This document shows, in pieces, positions 24,109 through 36,019 of a stretch of DNA of 39,554 nt (the stretch's first letter is position 1; each line of letters begins with the position of its first letter). The notes below the pieces were generated by a model. That model was not told the origin of the DNA and ran no database searches. It was given only the letters and a program-made list of their open reading frames with translations. The position numbers and the translations under genes were made by a program. The stretch comes from an uncultured Verrucomicrobiota bacterium (GTDB lineage: Bacteria > Verrucomicrobiota > Verrucomicrobiia > Limisphaerales > CAIQOK01): positions 1 to 39,554 of the forward strand of contig CAIQOK010000133.1 in assembly GCA_903873415.1 (NCBI GenBank), in the 5' to 3' direction.

Positions 24109-24141
24109 GCGATAACCAGCAGAGAGTTGAGTGCGCCAGCC

Positions 24142-25875
24142 ATGAACCCAGCCGTTCCACCCAACCCGGCCCTGCCATCGTTGCTTGACCGCATGGTGGC
24201 GGCGCGACAACTCTCCGCTCTGGACGCGCAGGCTTTGCGCCAAGCCAAGCCTGCCATCTTGTCAGAGGAAGAAGCACTCCGCTGGCTGGCCCGGGAATAC
24301 GGCCTTTCCTTCACCAGTCTTGAAGACGTGGATCCAGACCGCCAGTTGCTCTCCCTCTTTCCCGCCCGACTCCTGCTCAAGGAGGAACTACTTCCCCTGC
24401 GTCGCCACAACGGCACCGTGGAGGTGGCCACCAGCCGGCTCTTCGCCACCCACGGACTGGACGCTCTCAAAACACTCACCGGTCTGAACCTGCAACCGGT
24501 GCTCGCAACCTCGGAAGCCGTCCAGCGCGAAATCAAAAAACGCCTCGGCGTAGGCGCCGACACCATCGGCACCCTCGACGAGGAAAAGGGCTTCCAAGTG
24601 GTGGACGAGAACTCCGAGGACACCAATCTGGATGACGCCGCCGAAGACGAGGCATCCATCATCCGGTTCGTCAACCAGGTCCTCAAAGACGCCATCGAAC
24701 TGCGCGCCTCCGATGTGCATCTGGAACCCTTCGAGGACGAGTTCCGAATCCGCTACCGGATTGACGGTGAATTGCAAGAGGTGTCCGTGCCGGCGCAACT
24801 CAAGCGGTTCCAGCCAGCCATCGTTTCCCGCGTCAAAATCCTCAGTCATCTCAACATCGCCGAAAAGCGCCTGCCCCAGGACGGCCGCATCAAAATCCGG
24901 CTCGACAACGCCGAGGTCGACATCCGCGTCTCGGTCATCCCCATGCTGCACGGCGAGGCGGTCGTGATGCGTCTACTGCGCCAAAACTCCACCCTGCGCG
25001 GCCTCTCGGATATCGGGATGAACCTGCGCGAATTGGAGCATTTCCGGCATGTTCTTGGAATGCCCCATGGCATCATCCTCGTCACTGGCCCGACCGGCAG
25101 TGGCAAAACCTCCACCCTCTACACCGCACTTAACGAGATCAACGATTCAGTCCGCAAGATCATCACCGTGGAGGATCCGGTCGAATACCAGCTCAAGGGC
25201 GTCAACCAAATCCAGGTCAACGAAAAATCCGGACTCACCTTCGCCCGGGGCCTGCGCTCCATCCTGCGCCACGATCCGGATGTCATCCTGATAGGTGAGA
25301 TCCGGGACGCCGAGACGGCGCAGATTGCCGTGCAGGCGTCGCTCACGGGGCATCTGGTCTTCTCCACGCTGCACACCAACGACGCTCCCGGCGCCCTGAC
25401 CCGGCTGGTGGACATGGGTGTCGAACCCTATCTTGTAGCCTCGTCACTCGAGGCTGTGCTGGCCCAGCGACTGGTGCGTGTGCTCTGCAAACTCTGCAAG
25501 CAACCCGACACCTCCGCCCGTGCGGCGCAGTTCAAATTAAAACTCGGCATCGCACCGGATCGCACTCTTTTCAAATCCGTGGGCTGCCGCGAATGCCGCA
25601 ACACCGGATTCTTCGGCCGGCACGCCATTTTCGAGTGGATGGATACCGACGAGGAAATCCGGCAACTGATTCTCAAAAGCGCCTCCACCGACCAGATCAG
25701 GGCTGCGGCACGCAAGGCGGGCATGCGCACTCTGGCCGAAGATGGCTGGCGCCTGGTCGCCGCCGGCGTCACCACCGTCGAGGAGGTCCTGAGCGTCACC
25801 ACCGCCAAAGAGGTGGAGAGCGCCACCAGAAACCAGACCGGCGACTCCGCCGCCAGCATCGCGGTGGCGGGATGA
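24142..25875 (+). CDS. gspE: Type II secretion ATPase GspE (PilB-like)
   Basis: 577 residues. N1/N2 domains (1-150), then the ATPase: RASDVHLEPF, DGRIKIRLDNAEVDIRVS, Walker A GPTGSGKTST from about residue 316, Asp box TVEDPVEYQL, Walker B LRHDPDVILIGEIRD, His box GHLVFSTLHTND. A zinc-binding tetracysteine follows, at Cys449, Cys452, Cys482 and Cys485. It powers pseudopilus assembly from the inner face of the membrane. ATG at 24142 is chosen; a TTG at 24127 in frame is possible. The stop overlaps the ATG of a 47-codon frame. Confidence 0.94.
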   Translation: MNPAVPPNPALPSLLDRMVAARQLSALDAQALRQAKPAILSEEEALRWLAREYGLSFTSLEDVDPDRQLLSLFPARLLLKEELLPLRRHNGTVEVATSRLFATHGLDALKTLTGLNLQPVLATSEAVQREIKKRLGVGADTIGTLDEEKGFQVVDENSEDTNLDDAAEDEASIIRFVNQVLKDAIELRASDVHLEPFEDEFRIRYRIDGELQEVSVPAQLKRFQPAIVSRVKILSHLNIAEKRLPQDGRIKIRLDNAEVDIRVSVIPMLHGEAVVMRLLRQNSTLRGLSDIGMNLRELEHFRHVLGMPHGIILVTGPTGSGKTSTLYTALNEINDSVRKIITVEDPVEYQLKGVNQIQVNEKSGLTFARGLRSILRHDPDVILIGEIRDAETAQIAVQASLTGHLVFSTLHTNDAPGALTRLVDMGVEPYLVASSLEAVLAQRLVRVLCKLCKQPDTSARAAQFKLKLGIAPDRTLFKSVGCRECRNTGFFGRHAIFEWMDTDEEIRQLILKSASTDQIRAAARKAGMRTLAEDGWRLVAAGVTTVEEVLSVTTAKEVESATRNQTGDSAASIAVAG

Positions 25876-26015
25876 CTCCCATGAACCTTTCAAACCCAAA
25901 AGCCAAAGGTAAAAAAGACCTTGCAACCGCTGGTGGAGGGCTTGTTTGCACCGAAGAAAACACCGGATTTCATTCCCTGCCCCAGCCGAGTGTCGAAGGA
26001 GTCTGGACGTTTTAG
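25872..26015 (+). CDS. Possible 47-residue protein between gspE and gspF
   Basis: The ATG at 25872 overlaps the gspE TGA (ATGA). The frame encodes MTPMNLSNPKAKGKKDLATA and continues through GGGLVCTEENTGFHSLPQPS to VWTF, stopping at 26015, six bases before the gspF ATG. All other genes in this operon are packed within a few bases of each other, so an otherwise empty 146-base gap would be an exception; the frame fills it. The composition is basic then neutral, with one Cys. No family is known. It may be a small operon protein or a fossil. Confidence 0.35.
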   Translation: MTPMNLSNPKAKGKKDLATAGGGLVCTEENTGFHSLPQPSVEGVWTF

Positions 26016-26021
26016 AAAATC

Positions 26022-27272
26022 ATGCCCGCCTTTTCCTACAGAGCTTTGCTGGCTGACGGCAAGATCGCCGAAGGGCACATTGACGCCCCTGGCCGGCCCG
26101 ATGCGCTGCGTCAACTCGAGGCTCTGGGCTTACGCCCCCTCAAACTCGCGGAAAAAGCAGGCTCCAAAAACAGCCCCGTCCGCCCCGCGTCACTTCAGGG
26201 CTTGGGAAACGTCTCCTTCAAACTCGGGCCAAAAAAAGTCTCACCCAAGGAGGTGGAAAACTTCACACGCCTGCTCTCCAGCCTGCTGGCTGCCGCCGTC
26301 CCCTTGAGCCGGGCGCTCATTATCCTCCAGAAAGAAGCCTCTTCCCCCGCCGCACAGGCCCAGTGGAAAGAAATCCACACTCTCGTCGTCGACGGCATGT
26401 CCTTGGCCGATGCCATGGCCCGCTCCCCCGAAACCTTCCCCCGTGTCTATGTGGCGATGGTCGAGGCCGGTGAGGCTGGCGGTTTTCTTGATGTTGTGCT
26501 GGCTCAGATCGCCGACTTCCAGTCCCGGGAAAAGGAGCTTAAATCCAAGGTCGTCACCGCGATGATCTACCCGTGCATCCTCTTAGGTCTGGCCTTGGTG
26601 GTGTTGACGGTGCTGCTGGTTTTTTTCATCCCGAAATTCCAAAAGGTTTTCGCCAGCGTCCACGGCGCTCTGCCCCTCATCACCCAGCTGGTCATCGGCC
26701 TGAGCGATCTGGTCCGCTCCTATGGATTCCTTGTGGGCGCGGGACTCGTCGGCGCCGGGTTCCTGATCCGCAGCTGGTTCGTCTCGGCAAAGGGCAAGCG
26801 CACTTGGGAAAGCCTTGTGCTGCAATCCCCGCTGGTCGGCCCCCTCATCGCCCAATTCGCCATGGCCCGTTTCTGCCGCATGCTCGGCACCCTGCTCGGC
26901 GCAGGCGTCCCGCTGGTGCACGGCTTGAATGTCGCCCGCAAATCCATCGGCAACCAGGTCCTCGTGGACGCCGTCAGCCAAGCCATCGACCGGGTCCAGC
27001 AGGGCGGCCGGCTGGGTCAGAGCCTGGCCGATTGCAAACGACTCTTCTCCGGCTCAGTTCTGGAAATGATCTCCGTGGCGGAGGAAAGCGGCCGGCTCGA
27101 CGCCGAATTGGTCCGTATCGCCGCCGTAACCGAGGTGGACTTGGACCGCAATCTGAAAACAGCCGTCGCCTTTGCCGAACCAATGATGCTCTTTCTCATC
27201 GCCGGATTCATCGGCGTCATTTTCATCAGCATGCTGCTGCCTGTGTTCTCCCTGCAGGATTACATCAAATAG
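26022..27272 (+). CDS. gspF: Type II secretion inner-membrane protein GspF
   Basis: 416 residues. N-terminal short domain (1-60, MPAFSYRALLADGKIAEGHI), then two GspF domains, each with a helical cytoplasmic part and membrane helices. Motifs include FTRLLSSLLAAAVPLSRAL and SPETFPRVYVAMVEAGEAGG in the first and FCRMLGTLLGAGVPLVHGL and MISVAEESGRLD in the second. Membrane segments lie near 185-210, 235-258 and 390-412. It forms the platform to which GspE and the pseudopilins attach. Six bases follow the small frame and 21 bases precede gspG. Confidence 0.93.
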   Translation: MPAFSYRALLADGKIAEGHIDAPGRPDALRQLEALGLRPLKLAEKAGSKNSPVRPASLQGLGNVSFKLGPKKVSPKEVENFTRLLSSLLAAAVPLSRALIILQKEASSPAAQAQWKEIHTLVVDGMSLADAMARSPETFPRVYVAMVEAGEAGGFLDVVLAQIADFQSREKELKSKVVTAMIYPCILLGLALVVLTVLLVFFIPKFQKVFASVHGALPLITQLVIGLSDLVRSYGFLVGAGLVGAGFLIRSWFVSAKGKRTWESLVLQSPLVGPLIAQFAMARFCRMLGTLLGAGVPLVHGLNVARKSIGNQVLVDAVSQAIDRVQQGGRLGQSLADCKRLFSGSVLEMISVAEESGRLDAELVRIAAVTEVDLDRNLKTAVAFAEPMMLFLIAGFIGVIFISMLLPVFSLQDYIK

Positions 27273-27293
27273 AAACACCCCACCATCAACCCC

Positions 27294-27731
27294 ATGAAAA
27301 CCGCAGTTCACTCAACGCTCCGTTCCCGGCCTCCCGCCCCGCTCGCCTTCACGCTCGTCGAAATGCTTCTCGTCGTCACCATCATCGGCATCCTCGCCGC
27401 TCTGGTGATCCCGAAAATCGTCGGGCGCAGCGAACAGGCGCGTATGACCGCAGCGCATGCCGACATCAACGGCGGCATCAAGTCCGCCCTCGACGCCTTC
27501 GAGGTGGACAGCGGCTCGTATCCCAAGAACCTGCAGGAACTAATCCAGGCGCCAGGCAACGCCAAAAACTGGCATGGACCCTATCTGGACCGAATCCCTC
27601 TGGACCCCTGGGGGAACAACTACCTCTATTACTACCCAGGCAAACGCAACCAGCGCGGCTACGACCTGCTCTCAGTCGGCCCGGACGGCAAAGAAGGCTC
27701 CGACGATGATCTTGGCAACTGGGCTAAATAA
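27294..27731 (+). CDS. gspG: Major pseudopilin GspG
   Basis: 145 residues. Prepilin signal PLA^FTLVEMLLVV with cleavage after Ala18 and Glu at mature position 5. The hydrophobic helix is ILAALVIPKIVGR. The C-terminal domain has DPWGNNYLYYYPG and the calcium-loop residues GPDGKEGSDDDLG near the end, as in GspG. It is the main subunit of the pseudopilus. The residue before the cleavage site is Ala rather than the usual Gly, which prepilin peptidases tolerate in some proteins. It overlaps gspH by 26 bases. Confidence 0.92.
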   Translation: MKTAVHSTLRSRPPAPLAFTLVEMLLVVTIIGILAALVIPKIVGRSEQARMTAAHADINGGIKSALDAFEVDSGSYPKNLQELIQAPGNAKNWHGPYLDRIPLDPWGNNYLYYYPGKRNQRGYDLLSVGPDGKEGSDDDLGNWAK

Positions 27732-28227
27732 CCCGCGCCTCCCCCGGGCCTTCACCTTGATCGAATTGATCCTGGTGCTGGCGCTGCTGGTGATCATCAC
27801 CTCGCTGGCGGCCCCGGCCATGGCGCGGTTCATTCGCGGCCGGGCGCTCGATTCCGAGGCCCGACGGTTGCTGGCCTTGCTGCACGCCGGGCAGAGCCGC
27901 GCCGTGTCCGAAGGATTACCGGCGGTGCTCTGGGTGGACGCCAAAAAAAACAGCTACGGTCTCGAGGCTGAGGCATCCGGAACGGATGGGGATCCGAAAG
28001 CGGAGACTCTGCTGGTGGATGCCACCCTGCAAATCGCATCGGAAAGCGGCACCGCCGGCGAGGCATCGACTTTCAAAAACCTCCCGGCCATCCGGTTCCT
28101 GGCCGATGGATCGGTGGACGAGAACGCTCCGTCCGCCCTGCGCCTGAGCGATGGCGAGGGCTTCTCGCGCTGGCTGATCGCCGCACAGGACGGATCGGGT
28201 TATGAGATTCGCGACCGGCAAAACTAA
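27706..28227 (+). CDS. gspH: Minor pseudopilin GspH
   Basis: 173 residues. Prepilin signal RLPRA^FTLIELILVLALL with Glu at mature position 5; again Ala precedes the cleavage site. The hydrophobic helix is followed by a beta-rich domain with LLALLHAGQSRAVSEGLPAV, resembling the GspH/FimT segment (A-R-AV--G--V-L). It is one of the tip subunits. The start ATG at 27706 lies inside gspG and the stop overlaps gspI by 26 bases, the tight packing expected of this operon. Confidence 0.85.
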   Translation: MILATGLNNPRLPRAFTLIELILVLALLVIITSLAAPAMARFIRGRALDSEARRLLALLHAGQSRAVSEGLPAVLWVDAKKNSYGLEAEASGTDGDPKAETLLVDATLQIASESGTAGEASTFKNLPAIRFLADGSVDENAPSALRLSDGEGFSRWLIAAQDGSGYEIRDRQN

Positions 28228-28606
28228 GAGCCCGGCCGGGTTCACCCTGGCCGAGGTGCTGGCGGCAATGCTCTTTCTGGCCATCGTCATCCCGGCCGCC
28301 GTGGAAGCACTCCATGTCGCCAGCCTCGCAGGAGAGGTCGCCGCACGCAAAGGCGCCGCCGCACGCATCGCCGACCGGGTTTTAAACGAAAGCGTGGTCC
28401 TGACAAACTGGACCGGCGGCGGGCGCAGCGGGACGGTGACCGAAGGCGCGCTGCCGTTCCGCTGGACCTTGACGAGTGGAAACTGGACATCGGACAACCT
28501 GCAGTTGCTGACGGCCGAAGTGAGCTTCGCCGCGCAGGGCAAAGAGTACTCAGTCAGGCTGAGCACGTTGGTCAACAACTCCGGCATGACCGGCACCACA
28601 CGATAA
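28202..28606 (+). CDS. gspI: Minor pseudopilin GspI
   Basis: 134 residues. Prepilin signal SPAG^FTLAEVLAAMLFLA with Glu5, a hydrophobic helix, then AARKGAAARIADRVLNESVV and a short beta domain (PFRWTLTSGNWTS, LLTAEVSF). This is the size and pattern of GspI, the pseudopilin that binds GspJ and GspK at the pseudopilus tip. Confidence 0.85.
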   Translation: MRFATGKTKSPAGFTLAEVLAAMLFLAIVIPAAVEALHVASLAGEVAARKGAAARIADRVLNESVVLTNWTGGGRSGTVTEGALPFRWTLTSGNWTSDNLQLLTAEVSFAAQGKEYSVRLSTLVNNSGMTGTTR

Positions 28607-28613
28607 TTTCACA

Positions 28614-29327
28614 GTGACTCCGGCAATCTATACGCAACTCCGGTCCCGCCACGGCGCACCGGGCTTCACGCTGATCGAGATGATTCTCGCCATCGGCGTC
28701 GCCGCCCTCGTGCTCATTGCCGTCAATGCCACTCTCTTTGCCGCATTGCACCTGCGCGACATCACCGCTGACGCTGTGGACGCAGCCTCGCCGCTCGACC
28801 GGGCGGCGGCCCTGCTGCACCGCGACTTGGAGTGCGCCGTGCCCCCCACCAACGGCTCCACCCGGGTGCTCTCCGGCAGCTTCCGGGTCGGCTCACTCAC
28901 CAGCCCCGGCGTGAACGGCCCCGTGTCCATCGAACTGTTCACCGCCACCGGCGCACTCAATAGCAACACCCCCTGGCCCGACATCCAGCGCGTCAGCTAC
29001 GGGTTGAAAGCCTCCACCGACCGTTCGGTAACCGGCAAAAACCTGGTGCGCAGCGTCACCCGCAACCTCCTCTCACTCACCGCCCCGGAAGTGCAGGAAC
29101 AACTCCTCCTCCACGGCGTGGCGGACATCAAGTTTTCCTGCTATGACGGCGCGCAATGGCAGGAGATCTGGGACACCACCAGCCCGACTTCGGCCAGCAC
29201 AAACCTCCCTCAGGCCGTGCGTGTTGACATTCAAATGGCGGGCGGCCCCCTGTCGCAACCGGTGGAACTGCTCGTCCCTTTGGGCGTGCAGTCGCTCACC
29301 AACATGGTCCTGACCAGCTCCCAGTAA
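28614..29327 (+). CDS. gspJ: Minor pseudopilin GspJ
   Basis: 237 residues from a GTG at 28614, seven bases after gspI. Prepilin signal APG^FTLIEMILAIGVAALV with Glu5. Later parts are beta-rich, with LLHRDLECAVPPTNG (the RDLE phrase is typical of GspJ) and, near the end, a VADIKFSCYDGAQWQEIWD phrase (typical LFRYY/FRYFDG-W-W). It forms the tip complex with GspI and GspK. Confidence 0.88.
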   Translation: MTPAIYTQLRSRHGAPGFTLIEMILAIGVAALVLIAVNATLFAALHLRDITADAVDAASPLDRAAALLHRDLECAVPPTNGSTRVLSGSFRVGSLTSPGVNGPVSIELFTATGALNSNTPWPDIQRVSYGLKASTDRSVTGKNLVRSVTRNLLSLTAPEVQEQLLLHGVADIKFSCYDGAQWQEIWDTTSPTSASTNLPQAVRVDIQMAGGPLSQPVELLVPLGVQSLTNMVLTSSQ

Positions 29328-29334
29328 ACCGGCC

Positions 29335-30759
29335 ATGAAAACCCGGCACAAATCCCAACTCCCGATCAACACCCGCCCGCACCGGACCTCCCCCCTCGGA
29401 AACCGGGCCTCTGGCCCACAACCTTGCACGCCCCAAGCCGGTTCCGTGCTGATCATTGTGCTCTGGATTTCGCTCGGGCTGGTGAGTATCGCCCTTTATT
29501 TCGCCAACTCCATGACCTATGAACTTCGCGCCTCAGACAACCGGGTGGGCGGCATGGCGGCCGACCAAGCCGTGGAAGGCGCGGCGCGTTATGTGAGCTA
29601 TGTGCTGCAGAACTTCGCCACCAACGGCACCGTACCCGACACCAACCTTTTCAACACCGCCGCCGTTTCCATCGGCGAGGCCAGATTCTGGATCGTAGGC
29701 CGCAATCCCTCCGACCAGAAACCGGCCACCCCCACCTTTGGACTCGTGGATGAAGGCGCCAAGCTGAACCTAAACACGGTCAACACCAACGTCCTGGCCT
29801 ATCTCCCCAACATGACCACCGATTTCGCCCAAGCCATCCTGGACTGGCGCGGCACCAATGGCAGCATCTCCCTCGACTATGCCACCCAAGGGTATACAGC
29901 CAAAAACGCCCCGTTTGAAACCATCGATGAACTGCGCTTGGTCTACGGCGCAACTATGGGTCTTCTCGCTGGCGAGGATGTGAACCGCAACGGCATTTTG
30001 GACCCGAACGAGAAAGATTTAAACAGTAACGGCCAAATGGATCCTGGCCTGCTGGACTGCGTCACTGTCTACACCCGGGAACCCAATTTTTACGCGGATG
30101 AATCATCCCCGACCAACGTCAACACAGCCACAGAATCGCGCCTCATCACCTGCTTCAAAAACTGCGGGGTCAGCAGCGCCACAGCCGCCGCCACCGCTCT
30201 CTACCGCTCCATCCACATCTCCCCCGCCCGGCTCAACACCTGCTCGGGAACCTTAGACCTGGCCGTCCGCTGCCGCACCGCAGGCCTAAACTCCTCCGAT
30301 TTCGCCAGGGTCGCCCCCTGCCTGACCACCAGCACCAACGCATACCTCCGCGGCCGCGTCAACGTCAACACCGCGACCGCCCCCGTGCTGACCGCTCTGT
30401 TCATGGGCTTGGACATCGACGAATCCACCGCCTCCGGCGCCGTGCAGACCCTAATCACCTACCGGGATCAGAACGCCGGCAACCTCGCCACAGTCGCTTG
30501 GGTGATTGACGCCCTGGGCAATAAAAACCCGGTCCTCACCGCCCTGGTCCGCGGCGATTTTCTCACCACCCACAGCTACCAATTCACCGCCGACATCGCC
30601 GCCACCGGCCCCTTCGGACGAGGCTACCGCCGGGTGAAATTCATCTTTGACACCAGCAACGGCGGGCCGGTCTTGATCTATCGTCAAGACCTGAGCCGGT
30701 TGGGCTGGGCGCTGGGGGAAGATGCCCGTCAAAGCTGGATCGCCAAACAAACGCCCTAA
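29335..30759 (+). CDS. gspK: Minor pseudopilin GspK with EF-hand-like loops
   Basis: 474 residues. A long N-terminal leader (about 35 residues), then AG^SVLIIVLWISLG, the GspK-type signal that lacks Glu5. The large globular part has NLNTVNTNVLAYLPN (145-159), TNVNTATESRL (260-270) and VNVNTATAPVL (about 340-350), helix-hairpin-helix-like phrases common in GspK. Residues 215-226 (DVNRNGILDPNE) and 228-239 (DLNSNGQMDPGL) are two calcium-loop sequences; the first is a perfect EF-hand loop. GspK caps the pseudopilus tip, and known members bind calcium. A gap of seven bases follows gspJ and five precede the next gene. Confidence 0.9.
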   Translation: MKTRHKSQLPINTRPHRTSPLGNRASGPQPCTPQAGSVLIIVLWISLGLVSIALYFANSMTYELRASDNRVGGMAADQAVEGAARYVSYVLQNFATNGTVPDTNLFNTAAVSIGEARFWIVGRNPSDQKPATPTFGLVDEGAKLNLNTVNTNVLAYLPNMTTDFAQAILDWRGTNGSISLDYATQGYTAKNAPFETIDELRLVYGATMGLLAGEDVNRNGILDPNEKDLNSNGQMDPGLLDCVTVYTREPNFYADESSPTNVNTATESRLITCFKNCGVSSATAAATALYRSIHISPARLNTCSGTLDLAVRCRTAGLNSSDFARVAPCLTTSTNAYLRGRVNVNTATAPVLTALFMGLDIDESTASGAVQTLITYRDQNAGNLATVAWVIDALGNKNPVLTALVRGDFLTTHSYQFTADIAATGPFGRGYRRVKFIFDTSNGGPVLIYRQDLSRLGWALGEDARQSWIAKQTP

Positions 30760-30764
30760 ACCAA

Positions 30765-32213
30765 ATGTTCAAAATACCTTTCCAAAGCGAGAAACGCCTC
30801 ACCAGCCTGCTGGGCCTGGCCCTCGACGGCAATCGGCTCGACGGCGTCGTCTTGCGCCGCGTCAATGGCGCCATCGAACTCCAACAACGGTTTTCCGTCA
30901 CGCTCTCGCTCGATCCACTCACCGCCACCCCGGAACTGGCCGGACGCGAAATCCGCAATCAGCTCGAGGCCGCGGGCATCCGGGAACGACAATGTGTTTT
31001 GGGACTGCCGCTCAAATGGGTGCTCACCGCCCAGACCGAAGTCCCCCCGCTGCCGGAGGCCGACACTGCAAGCTTGCTTCAACTGGAGGCCGAGCGCGGA
31101 TTCCCCACCGACGCTGCCACCCTGCAACTGGCCTACTCACGCTGCCCCCTGCCGGCCGACCATCAACTCGTACTCCTCGCCGGCATCCCCCGCCTCCACC
31201 TCGCCGCCCTGGAGCAGGTGCTGCTCTGCGCCAAGCTAAAACCCCTTAGTTTCACCATCGCATCCGCCGCCTTGCAGAACCCCGCCTCTCCCACCTCAAA
31301 TGGGGTCATGACTCTGGCCGTCGGCGAAACCTCCGTAACCCTGCAGATCTCCTGCGGCGGCGGCTTGGCCGCACTCAGGGCGCTGGAGGGCGCGATCAAC
31401 ACCGAATCAGGCCAGCCGGGTATTCAGGTCGACGTCGTGGCCCGCGAAGCCCGCATCACCCTGGGCCAGCTTCCATCCGCATTGCGGGCCGAAGTCAAAA
31501 ACATCCGCATCTTCGGACCGCAGACGCTGACACGGCCGCTGGCCGACGAATTGGAGCTGCGCTTTGAAACACTGGGCCTAAAGGTCTCTGTCGTGGACGC
31601 CTACTCACCAGGCGAATTGGGGGCAACCATCCCGCCGAACACCGCCGTGTCCGCGGCCCTAAGCCTCGCGGCCCGGACTCTAACCGGTCAGGTGCCCGCG
31701 CTGGAATTTCTGCCGCCCAAACCGACTCTGCTCGAAAACTTGGCCGCAAAATATTCTTCAGGCCGCCTCCGCGCCGTCGGCGCCGCCGCCGGCACCTTGG
31801 TCGCCTTGGTGGGCGGACTCTTTTTATTCCAACAAATCCAACTCTGGCAGCTCCGCTCTCAGTGGTCCAAAATGTCGCCCCAAGTGTCCGACCTCCAGGA
31901 CGTCGAGGACCAGATCCGGCAATTCCGCCCCTGGTTCGACAACTCCTTCCGCAACCTGTCAATCCTCCGCCAACTCACCCAAGCCTTCCCCGAGGACGGC
32001 GCGGTCACCGCCAAGAACATCGAAATCCGCGAGGACGGCACTATCAACTGCTCCGGCAATGCCCGGGACAATGCGGCGTTGCTGGCCACATTGTCACGAC
32101 TCCGGGCCGCCGAGGGCGTCAGCGGAGTGAAAATCGATCTCATCCACGGCAAGACTCCGATGCAATTCACGTTTGAATTCCGCCAGGGAAATGGAGGCAG
32201 TCATGAAAATTGA
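30765..32213 (+). CDS. gspL: GspL-like protein (PilM-like domain joined to PilN-like domain)
   Basis: 482 residues. Residues 1-310 look like an actin-fold PilM/GspL cytoplasmic domain (LLGLALDGNRLDGVVLRRVN, VLGLPLKWVLTAQTEVPPLP, later LRALEGAINTESGQPGIQVD). One membrane helix follows at 335-357 (RAVGAAAGTLVALVGGLFLF). The periplasmic part (360-482) has a coiled helix and a ferredoxin-like PilN/GspL domain (SILRQLTQAFPEDGAVTAKN). It links GspE inside to GspM outside the membrane. The next gene overlaps its end by 11 bases. Confidence 0.8.
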   Translation: MFKIPFQSEKRLTSLLGLALDGNRLDGVVLRRVNGAIELQQRFSVTLSLDPLTATPELAGREIRNQLEAAGIRERQCVLGLPLKWVLTAQTEVPPLPEADTASLLQLEAERGFPTDAATLQLAYSRCPLPADHQLVLLAGIPRLHLAALEQVLLCAKLKPLSFTIASAALQNPASPTSNGVMTLAVGETSVTLQISCGGGLAALRALEGAINTESGQPGIQVDVVAREARITLGQLPSALRAEVKNIRIFGPQTLTRPLADELELRFETLGLKVSVVDAYSPGELGATIPPNTAVSAALSLAARTLTGQVPALEFLPPKPTLLENLAAKYSSGRLRAVGAAAGTLVALVGGLFLFQQIQLWQLRSQWSKMSPQVSDLQDVEDQIRQFRPWFDNSFRNLSILRQLTQAFPEDGAVTAKNIEIREDGTINCSGNARDNAALLATLSRLRAAEGVSGVKIDLIHGKTPMQFTFEFRQGNGGSHEN

Positions 32214-32739
32214 AAATCGCCAGCAGTTTCTTCTCGTGCTGACCCTCGCCGCCGCCGCGCTCTTGGTGGGCGTCAATTTCATTTATGAACCCCTCCAAAA
32301 CCTTTGGTCGGCGCGGAGCGCCCAGATCCGCGAACTGCAGGCCAAAATCGAGAGCGGCCGCAAGCTTCAACTCCGAGGACCGGCGGATCATAAGCGCTGG
32401 AACAACATGCTCACCAATTCGTTGCCGAGCAACACCTCGATGGCCGAGCAGCAGCTCTTCACCGCCTTGGACAACTGGCGGCGCAGCAGCGGCGCCGAAA
32501 TCACCAGCCTCAGCCCGCAATGGAAATCCACCTCAACCAACCACCTCACCCTCCACTGCCGCGTCGAAGCCACCGGAAATCTCGGCGCACTGAGCCAGTT
32601 TCTTTACAGCCTTGAACAGGGCCCTCTGGGAATCAAGGTCGACACCGCGGAACTCAGCGCCCACGACCTGACCGGCCAGCAACTCACCCTCGGCCTGCAG
32701 CTCAGCGGCCTGGCCCTGCCACAACCCGCCCAAAAATGA
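32203..32739 (+). CDS. gspM: GspM/PilO-like protein
   Basis: 178 residues. Start at 32203 chosen because GGAGG lies five bases before it; an ATG at 32191 is in frame but overlaps that site. A membrane helix at 8-25 (FLLVLTLAAAALLVGVNF), a coiled coil of about 30 residues (SARSAQIRELQAKIESGRKL), and a periplasmic ferredoxin-like domain (NHLTLHCRVEATGNLGALSQ, FLYSLEQGPLGIKVD). It partners with the GspL-like protein. Its stop overlaps the next start (ATGA). Confidence 0.75.
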   Translation: MKIENRQQFLLVLTLAAAALLVGVNFIYEPLQNLWSARSAQIRELQAKIESGRKLQLRGPADHKRWNNMLTNSLPSNTSMAEQQLFTALDNWRRSSGAEITSLSPQWKSTSTNHLTLHCRVEATGNLGALSQFLYSLEQGPLGIKVDTAELSAHDLTGQQLTLGLQLSGLALPQPAQK

Positions 32740-33329
32740 AATTCACGCAAACCCTCCCGGGCCTCACCCTGGCCCTCCTGCTCCATCACGTCCGCCCGGT
32801 CGCGGCCCAGACCAACCTGCCCGCCCCACCGCCCACCCCGGCCACCTTCAGCCGGTTTATCTCCGAGCGGAACATCTTCGACCCGAACCGCTCCCCGCGC
32901 TTTGCCCGCAGCAGCCCGAGAACCGAGCCCAAACCAACCCGCACCACCCGCGAAACCCCCACCTTCACCCTCGTCGGCACCATGAGTTATGAAAAAGGAC
33001 TCTTCGCCTTCTTTGACGGCAGCAGCCCCGAACTGCGCAAAATCCTCTGCCAGTCTGACTCCAACACCATCGCCGGCTACTCCGTGGCCGAAATCACCCT
33101 CACCGGGGCCAGACTGCTGAGCATCGACAAAAAAGAAACACTCGAACTCAAGCTCGGCGAGCGAATGCGCCAAGAGGAAAACCGCTGGCGAGTCATCGCC
33201 CCCTCGGAGTTGCCCCCCGAAAACACCCCGAAAGAGACGCCCGCAGCCACTCCGGCCCCCGCCGCAGCCGCTGAACCTAATGATATTTTGAAAAAGCTCA
33301 TGCAGAAACGAGAACAGGAATTAAAATGA
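32736..33329 (+). CDS. GspC/PilP-like protein
   Basis: 197 residues. A hydrophobic N-terminus (8-24) may be a signal peptide or anchor. Then FSRFISERNIFDPNRSPRF, the phrase (..NIFDP.R) found before the homology region of GspC and in PilP-like proteins, followed by FTLVGTMSYEKGLFAFFD, IAGYSVAEITLTGARLLS, IDKKETLELKLGERM. This is the small beta domain that binds the N0 domain of secretins. A Pro/Ala linker and a charged C-terminal helix follow; no PDZ domain is present. It connects the inner-membrane platform to the outer-membrane channel, and its position directly before the secretin genes supports this. ATGA overlap at both ends. Confidence 0.7.
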   Translation: MKFTQTLPGLTLALLLHHVRPVAAQTNLPAPPPTPATFSRFISERNIFDPNRSPRFARSSPRTEPKPTRTTRETPTFTLVGTMSYEKGLFAFFDGSSPELRKILCQSDSNTIAGYSVAEITLTGARLLSIDKKETLELKLGERMRQEENRWRVIAPSELPPENTPKETPAATPAPAAAAEPNDILKKLMQKREQELK

Positions 33330-34663
33330 AAACCACAGCCTCAGCCCTTCTTAGCGCGCTCTGCCTTTCCGCCCTGACCTTCCCGGTGGCCGCCCAACCG
33401 ACCCCCGGAAACTCAGCGCAGACCAATAGCATTGGCACCCAGCCCCCCACCCCCCCAACGCAAACCGCTCCCGACACCGCGGCCGATAAACAGTCGACCC
33501 CTCAAATACCACGCCAGACCGAGTCCATCATCATCCAACCCAAACACAGAGAGCCCCAAGCCCTGCCAAACCCGTTCGCCCCGCCAACGAAACCGGTAGG
33601 CACCAATACCGCAGAACTGCGCCTGAACTTCCGCAACGCCCCCTTGGAAATGGTGCTCAACTATCTCAGCGATGCAGCCGGTTTCATCATCGTTCTCGAC
33701 ACCCGCATCACCGGCACCGTCAATATCATCAGCAGCCATCCGGTGACCCGCGAGGAGGCCGTCGACCTCCTCAATACTGAGCTGAACCGCAACAATTATG
33801 CCGCCATCCGCGAAGGCCGCACCCTGACCATCGTGGACAAAAGCGTTGCCAAAACCCGCAACATCCCCGTCCGCACCGGCAACATCCCCGCCAACATCCC
33901 CAAAAACGACGAAATCGTCACCCAGATCATTCCCATCCGCTTCGTCGAAGCCCGGCAGCTAACCTCCGACCTGGCGCCGTTCCTCTCCTCCCAGGCAACC
34001 ATTACCGCGAACGAAACCGGCAATGCCATTTTGATCACCGACACCCAGGCCAACATCCGGCACCTCGTTGAAATCATTCAAGCGGTGGACAGCAACGCCG
34101 AAGCGGAAACCGAAATCCGCGTCTTCCGATTGAAAAACGCAAGTCCGACAGATATTGCCAATGAACTTGGCAGCATCTTTCCAAGCAGCTCCGGCGGTTC
34201 ACAATCCCCAATCCGCTTCGGCGGCGGCAGTGGCGGATTCTTCTCCCGGATGATGGGCGGTGGCGGCGGCGACACCGGTGGTCAAAGTAAGAACGCCAAC
34301 GATCGCATCAAAAAGGCAACCCAGGTTACCGCCGTGGCCGATACGCGTATCCAAGCCGTCATCGTAACCGCGCCCAAGGACTTGATGCTCCAGATCGCTG
34401 AGATGATGACCGACCTGGATGTCCCCTCGGACCGGGATCAAGGGGTTTATGTGTTTCAGATGAAAAACGGGGATCCACAGCAGGCGGTGCAGGTCTTGCA
34501 AAACATGTTCCAGAGCGGCACATCCGCCCGCACGAGCAGCGGATCCTCGCAAAACAGCCCACTGCAGCAGCGGGCTTTGAACAGCACCACCAGCATGGGC
34601 TCCACCACCCCCTCGGGGATCGGCGGCGGCACAACCGGCGGCGGCAGTCGGACTGGCCTGTGA
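33326..34663 (+). CDS. Secretin N-terminal half (N0-N1-N2 and first part of N3)
   Basis: 445 residues with a signal peptide (1-23) and a Pro/Thr/Gln-rich stretch to about 90. N0 (96-175, LRLNFRNAPLEMVLNYLSDA), N1 (196-256, IIPIRFVEARQLTSDLAPFL), N2 (262-368, interrupted by a Gly-rich loop at 288-320) and the opening of N3 (373-397, VYVFQMKNGDPQQAVQVLQN). It then ends in a Ser/Gly/Thr-rich tail (GIGGGTTGGGSRTGL). No secretin pore domain is present, so alone it cannot form a channel. The remaining part is the next gene, 18 bases downstream. It reaches down into the periplasm to meet the GspC/PilP-like protein. Confidence 0.85.
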   Translation: MKTTASALLSALCLSALTFPVAAQPTPGNSAQTNSIGTQPPTPPTQTAPDTAADKQSTPQIPRQTESIIIQPKHREPQALPNPFAPPTKPVGTNTAELRLNFRNAPLEMVLNYLSDAAGFIIVLDTRITGTVNIISSHPVTREEAVDLLNTELNRNNYAAIREGRTLTIVDKSVAKTRNIPVRTGNIPANIPKNDEIVTQIIPIRFVEARQLTSDLAPFLSSQATITANETGNAILITDTQANIRHLVEIIQAVDSNAEAETEIRVFRLKNASPTDIANELGSIFPSSSGGSQSPIRFGGGSGGFFSRMMGGGGGDTGGQSKNANDRIKKATQVTAVADTRIQAVIVTAPKDLMLQIAEMMTDLDVPSDRDQGVYVFQMKNGDPQQAVQVLQNMFQSGTSARTSSGSSQNSPLQQRALNSTTSMGSTTPSGIGGGTTGGGSRTGL

Positions 34664-34681
34664 CACCTGAAACACAATTCG

Positions 34682-36019
34682 ATGAAAACGCATAATATGA
34701 AAGCAAACGGTTTCAAGAAGCATCTCGCTGCAACGCTGGCCCTCGCCCTATCCTCCGCGATCGAACTCTCCGCCCAGTCCAGATACGGCGGCGGCGGATT
34801 CGGCGGATTTGGTGGATTTGGAGGCTTCGGCGGATTCGGAAGTGGATCCAGTGGCAGTTCCAGCAGAGGCAGTACCACCCCCAGCGGCCAATACAACAAC
34901 AACGGCACCGTCGGCAACGCCGTCATCTCCGTCGATCCCGTCACCCACAACATCATTGTCATCGCCGACAAGCAGACCCGCGAGCAAATCGGCGAAGTCC
35001 TCGCCAAACTCGACGCCCCGACGCCGCAGGTGCTCATCAAAGTCGTGTTCCTTGAGGTCGAACATAACAACCAGTCGGAAATTGGTGTCCAAGGCGGTTA
35101 CACCGGAGTTAACAAGAATTTCTCCCAGGCGGTGGGCTATGCCACCAACTTCGCCGTGGCCGACAATTCCATCGTTCCTCAAAGCATCTCTCCGGTAAAA
35201 CAGAGCGTCAACGCCAACAACAACTTCGGCCTGCCCCAATCCATCCCCGGAGCCACCGGCAACGGAGGTGTCTACCAGCTCATGGGCAGTGATTTCACGG
35301 CCACCCTGCAAGCCATCGCCGCCGCTGGCAAATCCCAGGTCCTCTCCCGCCCCTCCATCCTGGCCCGCGACGGTCAAATGGCACAGATCATTGTCGGCCA
35401 GAGCGTCTACCTGCCCAGCGGAGTGAGCTATAGCTCCGTCGGCGGAACAGCCTCCAGCATCCCAACCATCAACGGCAGCTATCAAAACGTGGGCATCCAG
35501 CTCGATGTCACCCCATTCATCGGAGCCAACAGCCTCGTCCAGATGATCCTTCAGCCACAGATCACCTCCGTCGACCTCTCCACACCCGGTCAGATAATCG
35601 CAGTCGCCCCAAGCACCCTGAGTTCAACTGCCGTCTATGCGCCCAACCTCAACAAACGTTCCGCCAACACCGTCGTAGTCACCCCGGACGGACAACCAGT
35701 CGTCATCGGCGGCCTCATCTCCAACGCCAAATCCTCCAGCGACACCAAAGTGCCGATTCTGGGCGATATTCCGCTGCTGGGCTTGCTCTTCAAATCCAGC
35801 GCCAAATCCAGCCGCAAAAACGAACTCCTCATCTTCCTCACCCCCCATATCGTCCAGATGCCTTCCGCCCTGGCCGCCCTGGCCACCAAGGAAACCGGCC
35901 AGTCCCAGCTCATCACCAACTCCATCTCGGAACAGGACCTCGACCGCTATCTGGAACGGGTCCCAGTCAAACCTGTTCCCCACGGCAAGCCAGACCCCAA
36001 ATCCACACCTCGGCGTTGA
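34682..36019 (+). CDS. gspD: Secretin C-terminal half (end of N3 and pore domain)
   Basis: 445 residues. Its own signal peptide (about 10-32, FKKHLAATLALALSSAIELSA), then a Gly-Phe tract (36-54), a Ser-rich linker, and AVISVDPVTHNIIVIADKQT (80-99) through LDAPTPQVLIKVVFLEVE. This is the second half of an N3 domain and the start of the pore domain. The pore domain has KSQVLSRPSILARDGQMAQI (217-236), VGIQLDVTPFI, and the secretin signature VPILGDIPLLGLLF (357-370), ending ELLIFLTPHIVQ. It forms the outer-membrane ring. ATG at 34682 or 34697 are both possible starts. A C-terminal extension of about 50 residues may bind a pilotin. Confidence 0.88.
   Translation: MKTHNMKANGFKKHLAATLALALSSAIELSAQSRYGGGGFGGFGGFGGFGGFGSGSSGSSSRGSTTPSGQYNNNGTVGNAVISVDPVTHNIIVIADKQTREQIGEVLAKLDAPTPQVLIKVVFLEVEHNNQSEIGVQGGYTGVNKNFSQAVGYATNFAVADNSIVPQSISPVKQSVNANNNFGLPQSIPGATGNGGVYQLMGSDFTATLQAIAAAGKSQVLSRPSILARDGQMAQIIVGQSVYLPSGVSYSSVGGTASSIPTINGSYQNVGIQLDVTPFIGANSLVQMILQPQITSVDLSTPGQIIAVAPSTLSSTAVYAPNLNKRSANTVVVTPDGQPVVIGGLISNAKSSSDTKVPILGDIPLLGLLFKSSAKSSRKNELLIFLTPHIVQMPSALAALATKETGQSQLITNSISEQDLDRYLERVPVKPVPHGKPDPKSTPRR
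34787..34843 (+). repeat. Gly-Phe coding repeat
   Basis: The codons for residues 36-54 of the secretin half repeat GGA/GGC-TT(T/C)-GG units, giving GGGGFGGFGGFGGFGGFG right after the signal peptide. Codons vary at the third base, so the peptide rather than the DNA seems to be conserved. Confidence 0.75.

Follow-up and report, generated by a model that had tools for sequence, protein, structure and literature searches.

A type II secretin (GspD) encoded by two genes in Verrucomicrobiota, with an N3 domain divided between, and probably completed across, the two chains

The window analysed here is a stretch of 39,554 nucleotides from an uncultured Verrucomicrobiota bacterium of the order Limisphaerales. 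It contains a GspE-to-GspC T2SS operon (24127-36019), the last gene pair of which, D1 and D2, encodes chains related to the secretin GspD. The genes preceding this pair are:

24127..25875, + strand: GspE ATPase (PF00437, PF05157)
26022..27272, + strand: GspF (PF00482)
27294..27731, + strand: GspG-like major pseudopilin (N-methylation motif in the translation)
27574..28227, + strand: GspH-like pseudopilin (PF12019)
28202..28606, + strand: GspI-like pseudopilin (N-methylation motif in the translation)
28614..29327, + strand: GspJ (PF11612)
29335..30759, + strand: GspK (PF03934, NF037980)
30765..32213, + strand: GspL-like, a weak assignment made by position only, without a family match
32209..32739, + strand: GspM (NF040576, E = 3e-10)
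32736..33329, + strand: GspC-like (NF041515, E = 7e-05, weak)

The stop codon of the GspC-like gene overlaps the start codon of D1 (ATGA), and a sensor histidine kinase gene comes after D2. Four more secretin genes are present in the genome, all of them one-chain; one, an 847-residue frame on another contig, adjoins a GspE-type ATPase gene of its own.

D1 and D2 were called as two open reading frames of 445 amino acids each on the + strand (33326-34663 and 34682-36019), 18 bases apart. They share one frame, in which a single TGA and six codons intervene. Judging from the alignment with orthologues, the ATG at 34697 is more likely to be the start of D2 than the one at 34682. The gap of 18 bases noted in an earlier, sequence-only reading of this DNA is thus right for the frames as called; with the likelier start it becomes 33 bases, equal to the median of 153 non-redundant loci (150 with two chains and three with three chains). 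The features of the pair are as follows:

33326..34663, + strand: D1, GspD N-terminal chain, 445 aa (signal peptide, N0, N1, N2, first half of N3, Gly/Ser/Thr tail)
33614..33874, + strand: N0 domain, about residues 97-183 of D1 (PF21305 at residues 100-165; AF2)
33911..34099, + strand: N1 domain, about residues 196-258 of D1 (PF03958 match at 199-257; AF2)
34106..34423, + strand: N2 domain, about residues 261-366 of D1 (alignment; AF2)
34436..34516, + strand: first half of N3, strand 1 and helix 1, about residues 371-397 of D1 (end of the TIGR02517 match at 299; AF2 of the joined chain; co-variation)
34517..34660, + strand: D1 tail, an S-x-QNS-x-L-x-x-R motif followed by Gly/Ser/Thr (AF2 pLDDT mostly below 50)
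34682..36019 (likely start 34697), + strand: D2, GspD C-terminal chain (signal peptide, Gly-Phe tract, second half of N3, pore)
34697..34777, + strand: putative D2 signal peptide, MKANGFKKHLAATLALALSSAIELSAQ (sequence; orthologue pattern)
34784..34906, + strand: Gly-Phe and Ser-rich low-complexity linker of D2 (orthologue listing; AF2)
34907..35029, + strand: second half of N3, strands 2 and 3 and helix 2, about residues 76-116 of D2 (Secretin_N profile 25-69; AF2; co-variation)
35030..35881, + strand: secretin pore (gate and barrel) domain of D2 (PF00263, E = 7.6e-44; PDB matches to XcpQ and GspD)

The N-termini of orthologous D2 proteins show the same pattern, MK...KK-hydrophobic-A-x-A-Q.

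Against the NCBIfam model type_II_gspD (TIGR02517), D1 matches profile positions 1-299 with 187.7 bits and D2 positions 286-599 with 222 bits. The cut-off is 351, so both chains fall short of a complete GspD on their own, and our claim is limited to the pair working as a GspD and does not extend to either chain singly. In Pfam terms, D1 consists of an N0 domain of the GspD type (PF21305, E = 3.8e-13) and Secretin_N, and D2 of a partial Secretin_N (profile 25-69) and the Secretin pore domain. The full set of N1-N3 and C-terminal pore is reached only by the two chains jointly, with N3 present only across both. These matches, together with the signal-peptide-like start and Gly-Phe tract of D2 and the tail of D1, bear out the sequence-only reading, which had assigned N0-N1-N2, the start of N3 and a Gly/Ser/Thr tail to D1, and a signal peptide, a Gly-Phe tract, the remainder of N3 and the pore to D2.

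The same boundary is found in solved structures. On the ExeD chain, D1 matches residues 94-180 and D2 residues 180-488, so that the pieces abut; on XcpQ the D1 piece extends up to residue 265 and the D2 piece starts from 269, and on E. coli K-12 GspD the D1 piece likewise reaches 265 and the D2 piece begins at 280. Taken singly, the D1-side matches to solved GspD chains are weak. Because the two pieces abut both in the profile and in the solved GspD chains, the cut in N3 follows strand 1 and helix 1. The break is the known variable loop from helix 1 to strand 2 of N3, where it had already been placed from the sequence, and it is conserved across the order and beyond; the Gly/Ser-rich tails of D1 and D2 are both ends of this former loop. 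In the PulD structure, residues 288-303 form a loop that was left out of the model (PMC6882859); it may correspond to the loop cut here, the numbering being unchecked.

For AlphaFold2 (AF2) modelling, D1 and D2 were joined by reading through the TGA, giving one covalent chain and not a multimer; 15 of the 49 rows of the alignment were joined in frame, and the rest entered as separate halves. In the joined chain, the D1 half of N3 (residues 371-400) forms strand 373-378 and reaches block pLDDT values of 89, 89 and 70; values in the D2 half are 88-91, and the approximately 130 residues between the halves are mostly below 50. With D1 alone (30 rows), the blocks of the half-domain are at 53, 68 and 58 and strand 1 is lost, N0-N2 being almost unchanged between the two models; the D1 half of N3 is predicted to be ordered only with the D2 half present. 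An alignment of the joined model with PulD spans 819 columns (E = 7e-30). The AF2 results were judged without coordinates or PAE, and contacts between the N3 halves were not inspected directly.

To measure co-variation between the chains, mutual information was computed with average-product correction and ranked by block over 150 pairs, a small sample with an effective number of about 120. Mean-field DCA on the same 150 pairs was too noisy, and mutual information with block ranking was used instead. A block pre-defined from the domain limits, D1 370-398 by D2 76-116, ranks in the top 0.26% of blocks of the same size, and the best block of the whole matrix, D1 368-396 by D2 72-107, again pairs N3 half with N3 half. 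After thinning to 76 or 32 sequences the N3-half block remains in the top 0.24%; at 17 sequences it drops to 0.66%, with a different block coming first. Its z of 3.2 falls to no more than 1.36 when partners are shuffled within clusters. In an 8-group alphabet it lies in the top 0.6%, the best block being instead D1 367-393 by D2 230-264. The halves of the intact N2 domain, taken as a control, give a weak signal. Co-variation and modelling fit completion of N3 across chains without proving it; the suggestion made from the sequence, that N3 is reassembled from two chains, is in this sense supported by the joined-chain prediction and the 150 pairs, with no bench data.

D1 and D2 are two conserved, separate genes with complementary domains. 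In our preferred reading, they very probably form one mixed T2SS secretin (GspD) with N3 completed across the chains, for which there are no biochemical data. Each chain would be exported by Sec via its own signal peptide. In the periplasm, strand 1 and helix 1 of D1 would pack with strands 2 and 3 and helix 2 of D2, completing N3. By inference from known GspD biology, D2 would form the outer-membrane pore and D1 the N0-N1-N2 periplasmic rings, reaching the inner-membrane platform through GspC; the inferred function of the pair is that of a multimeric channel secreting folded proteins. Studied secretins depend critically on N3 to oligomerise and to form the pre-pore (PMC6946019, PMC6155069), and because of this requirement docking of D1 may license the assembly of D2.

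Both proteins could also belong to the T2SS without sharing N3. D2 would then form the pore with only a reduced N3 of its own, and D1 would be a separate protein serving as an N0-N1-N2 ring or for docking. RhcC1 has been read as a linker to the inner-membrane ring (PMC3459982), comparable to such a separate D1, and long disordered tails lie between the N3 halves. In some genomes there are free-standing D1 paralogues with no D2 gene next to them, so a role of D1 independent of D2 is also possible. However, the terminal strand-helix of D1 is kept in the D1 proteins examined, orphans included; it is ordered in the model only with the D2 half, and it co-varies with that half above almost any other block. 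We consider this arrangement unlikely, although it remains the most serious competitor.

A further possibility, to which we give markedly less weight, is that N3 is domain-swapped, D1 completing the N3 of a neighbouring protomer, or that D1 and D2 are not present at 1:1 (for instance, 12 N-modules to 15 C-modules). The 15:12 mismatch between secretin and inner-membrane partner in the canonical T2SS is debated (PMC10550240), and a chain cut between N- and C-modules would relax it. Against this, each complete N3 requires one D1 and the link of D1 from N2 to its half of N3 is short; there are no stoichiometry data here.

The sequence-only reading had anticipated relatives in the PVC group and proposed looking for the adjacent pair in other Verrucomicrobiota. 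Such pairs do exist: the break has the same position in 150 non-redundant orthologous pairs, and D1 and D2 are separate open reading frames at every orthologous locus with enough sequence. Five close loci in the named-genome collection belong to Verrucomicrobia subdivision 3 / Limisphaerales; D2 orthologues extend to most sampled families of Limisphaerales, other orders of the class and two genomes of other classes. A tree was built from 111 rows; 83 split D2 proteins lie on one side of a branch with an SH-aLRT support of 100, and 28 one-chain secretins lie outside it. This is a quick tree in which some outgroup branches are long and the root was not inferred; that the split arose once would be its simplest reading.

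The shared frame of D1 and D2 in the window, with only a TGA and six codons between them, taken alone would suggest that one gene had been interrupted, by a nonsense mutation or a sequencing error, or that stop-codon readthrough joins the two parts. The comparison of 153 loci removes this doubt. The frame of the D2 start relative to D1 is random (0, 1 and 2 at 49, 46 and 58 loci), all three stop codons end D1 (TGA 74, TAA 61, TAG 18), and the gap ranges from 4 to 809 bases. D2 has a new, signal-peptide-like N-terminus in 150 of the 153 proteins, with starts chosen by a simple hydrophobicity rule and without a signal-peptide predictor. Searches of the order, class and phylum gave no fused orthologue among close relatives, only distant one-chain secretins, and the sampled D2 proteins make up a single clade (support 100). 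The frames, the stop codons and the comparative loci rule out a sequencing error, a pseudogene and readthrough, and a broken gene has practically no probability left; error and frameshift had been discounted before, with the same-frame TGA and six codons unnoticed, a layout close to the continuous frame across 34650-34700 that the sequence-only reading had named as its own disproof. Partial gene replacement, proposed for rhizobia with RhcC1/RhcC2 as the precedent (PMC3459982) and implying different evolutionary origins of D1 and D2, can equally be discounted: both chains match T2SS GspD best, as complementary halves of one model, they are adjacent at nearly all loci (no D1 tree was made), and they co-vary at the break.

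At three loci, D1 is itself encoded as two open reading frames: L017 and L022, from one genus, and L062, from another family. In all three, the first chain (A) includes N2 only as far as helix 1 and closes with a Gly-rich tail, and the second (B) starts with a new signal peptide followed by the N2 strands, a whole further N-domain and the opening half of the final one. L017 and L022 lack the 5' end of chain A, which is truncated by the locus boundary. N2 of D1 in the window carries a Gly-rich loop from helix 1 to strand 2. In the D2 tree, L017 and L022 pair with a two-chain locus and L062 lies elsewhere. Since the N2 split is thus found on two separate branches, it probably has two origins, both in the loop of this homologous domain that matches the N3 break.

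A wider proposal, which we offer tentatively and think more doubtful than likely, is that much of Verrucomicrobiae uses an obligate mixed secretin in which strand-helix complementation of N3, or of N2 in some lineages, acts as an assembly checkpoint. The copy numbers of N- and C-modules may then differ, and free D1 paralogues may exchange to give alternative gates. With these modules on separate chains, the debated 15:12 symmetry mismatch of the T2SS and the role of N3 in assembly become testable. The pair also shows that, in a large membrane machine, a ring-building domain may exist with a cut inside its fold and be kept so across an order and beyond.

Canonical GspD (PulD, XcpQ/XcpD, ExeD, EpsD) has the same N0-N1-N2-N3-pore order as D1 and D2 together and the same operon neighbours (GspE, F, pseudopilins, K, M and C-like). 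It is one chain, whereas D1 and D2 are two exported chains cut in the helix 1-strand 2 loop of N3, and some relatives have three. Split secretins as such are already known, and the sequence-only statement that no such system had been described holds only in part: RhcC1/RhcC2 and mitochondrial GspD are published (PMC3973906, PMC3459982, PMC8134430), and for a bacterial T2SS we found no description in the literature searched. That search, on split secretins and on GspD in Verrucomicrobia, returned only the T3SS and mitochondrial precedents and left subscription papers mostly uncovered.

The T3SS-2 secretins of rhizobia and some P. syringae are split into RhcC1-RhcC2 (HrcIIC1-HrcIIC2), an N-terminal and a C-terminal protein as in D1/D2, with more splits in some strains (PMC3973906, PMC3574062). 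Their genes, however, belong to a T3SS and are non-adjacent, and different origins have been proposed, RhcC2 being Tad-like (PMC3459982); for an N3 shared between RhcC1 and RhcC2 we found no description. D2 is not of the Tad (CpaC/RcpA) type and does not lie in a T3SS cluster, its best match being GspD and its setting a T2SS operon.

The mitochondrial T2SS of jakobids, heteroloboseans and others contains GspD, GspDL and GspDN1-3 pieces (PMC8134430). Mitochondrial GspD is thus made of several polypeptides, two of which have only the N- or C-terminal half of an N-domain (PMC8134430), a division like that between D1 and D2. By analogy, the pair may work like the mitochondrial split GspD, although kinship is not shown. 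The mitochondrial proteins are eukaryotic, highly divergent and without N0, and assigning their pieces to a specific N-domain was stated to be impossible (PMC8134430). D1 and D2, in contrast, are bacterial, lie as adjacent half-genes in one operon, keep N0 and have a mapped break, and may be regarded as a bacterial counterpart of the fragmented mitochondrial T2SS secretin.

The secretin is divided in different ways among the related Verrucomicrobiota. At three loci (L017, L022 and L062) it is made up of three chains, with N2 also split, within its helix 1-strand 2 loop. Many relatives, L035 among them, have an N-terminal chain (D1) of about 530-600 amino acids, containing one additional complete domain of the ring-building Secretin_N family:

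L035:2650-4305, minus strand, longer D1 with the additional complete Secretin_N domain

At this locus and at L036, D1 is separated from the C-terminal, pore-containing chain (D2) by about 800 bases, and the intervening stretch contains no clear gene. Free-standing D1-like genes, encoding N0-N2, half of N3 and a Gly/Ser tail, are found at L163, L183, L190, L192 and L199, with no D2 downstream within the sequence stretch examined; several genomes contain such a gene on top of a normal, adjacent D1-D2 pair.

Two genomes from other classes of the phylum also contain a split secretin (L096 in G364 and L100 in G403), possibly due to transfer or to an older origin, contamination not being excluded. 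The window's own genome contains a second secretion or pilus-like cluster:

L213:6462-12586, one-chain GspD-like secretin with its own GspE-type ATPase

Limisphaerales genomes also encode giant secretins, each in a single open reading frame:

L210:987-13412, plus strand, giant secretin
L211:808-12693, minus strand, giant secretin
L212:1281-13601, plus strand, giant secretin

These proteins, about 3960-4140 amino acids long, have a signal peptide, an N0-like start and, at the C-terminal end, the secretin pore. Similar open frames are also present in other genomes. Two of the three were scanned for Secretin_N repeats, yielding 32 and 36, a number of ring domains far above that of any secretin known to us.
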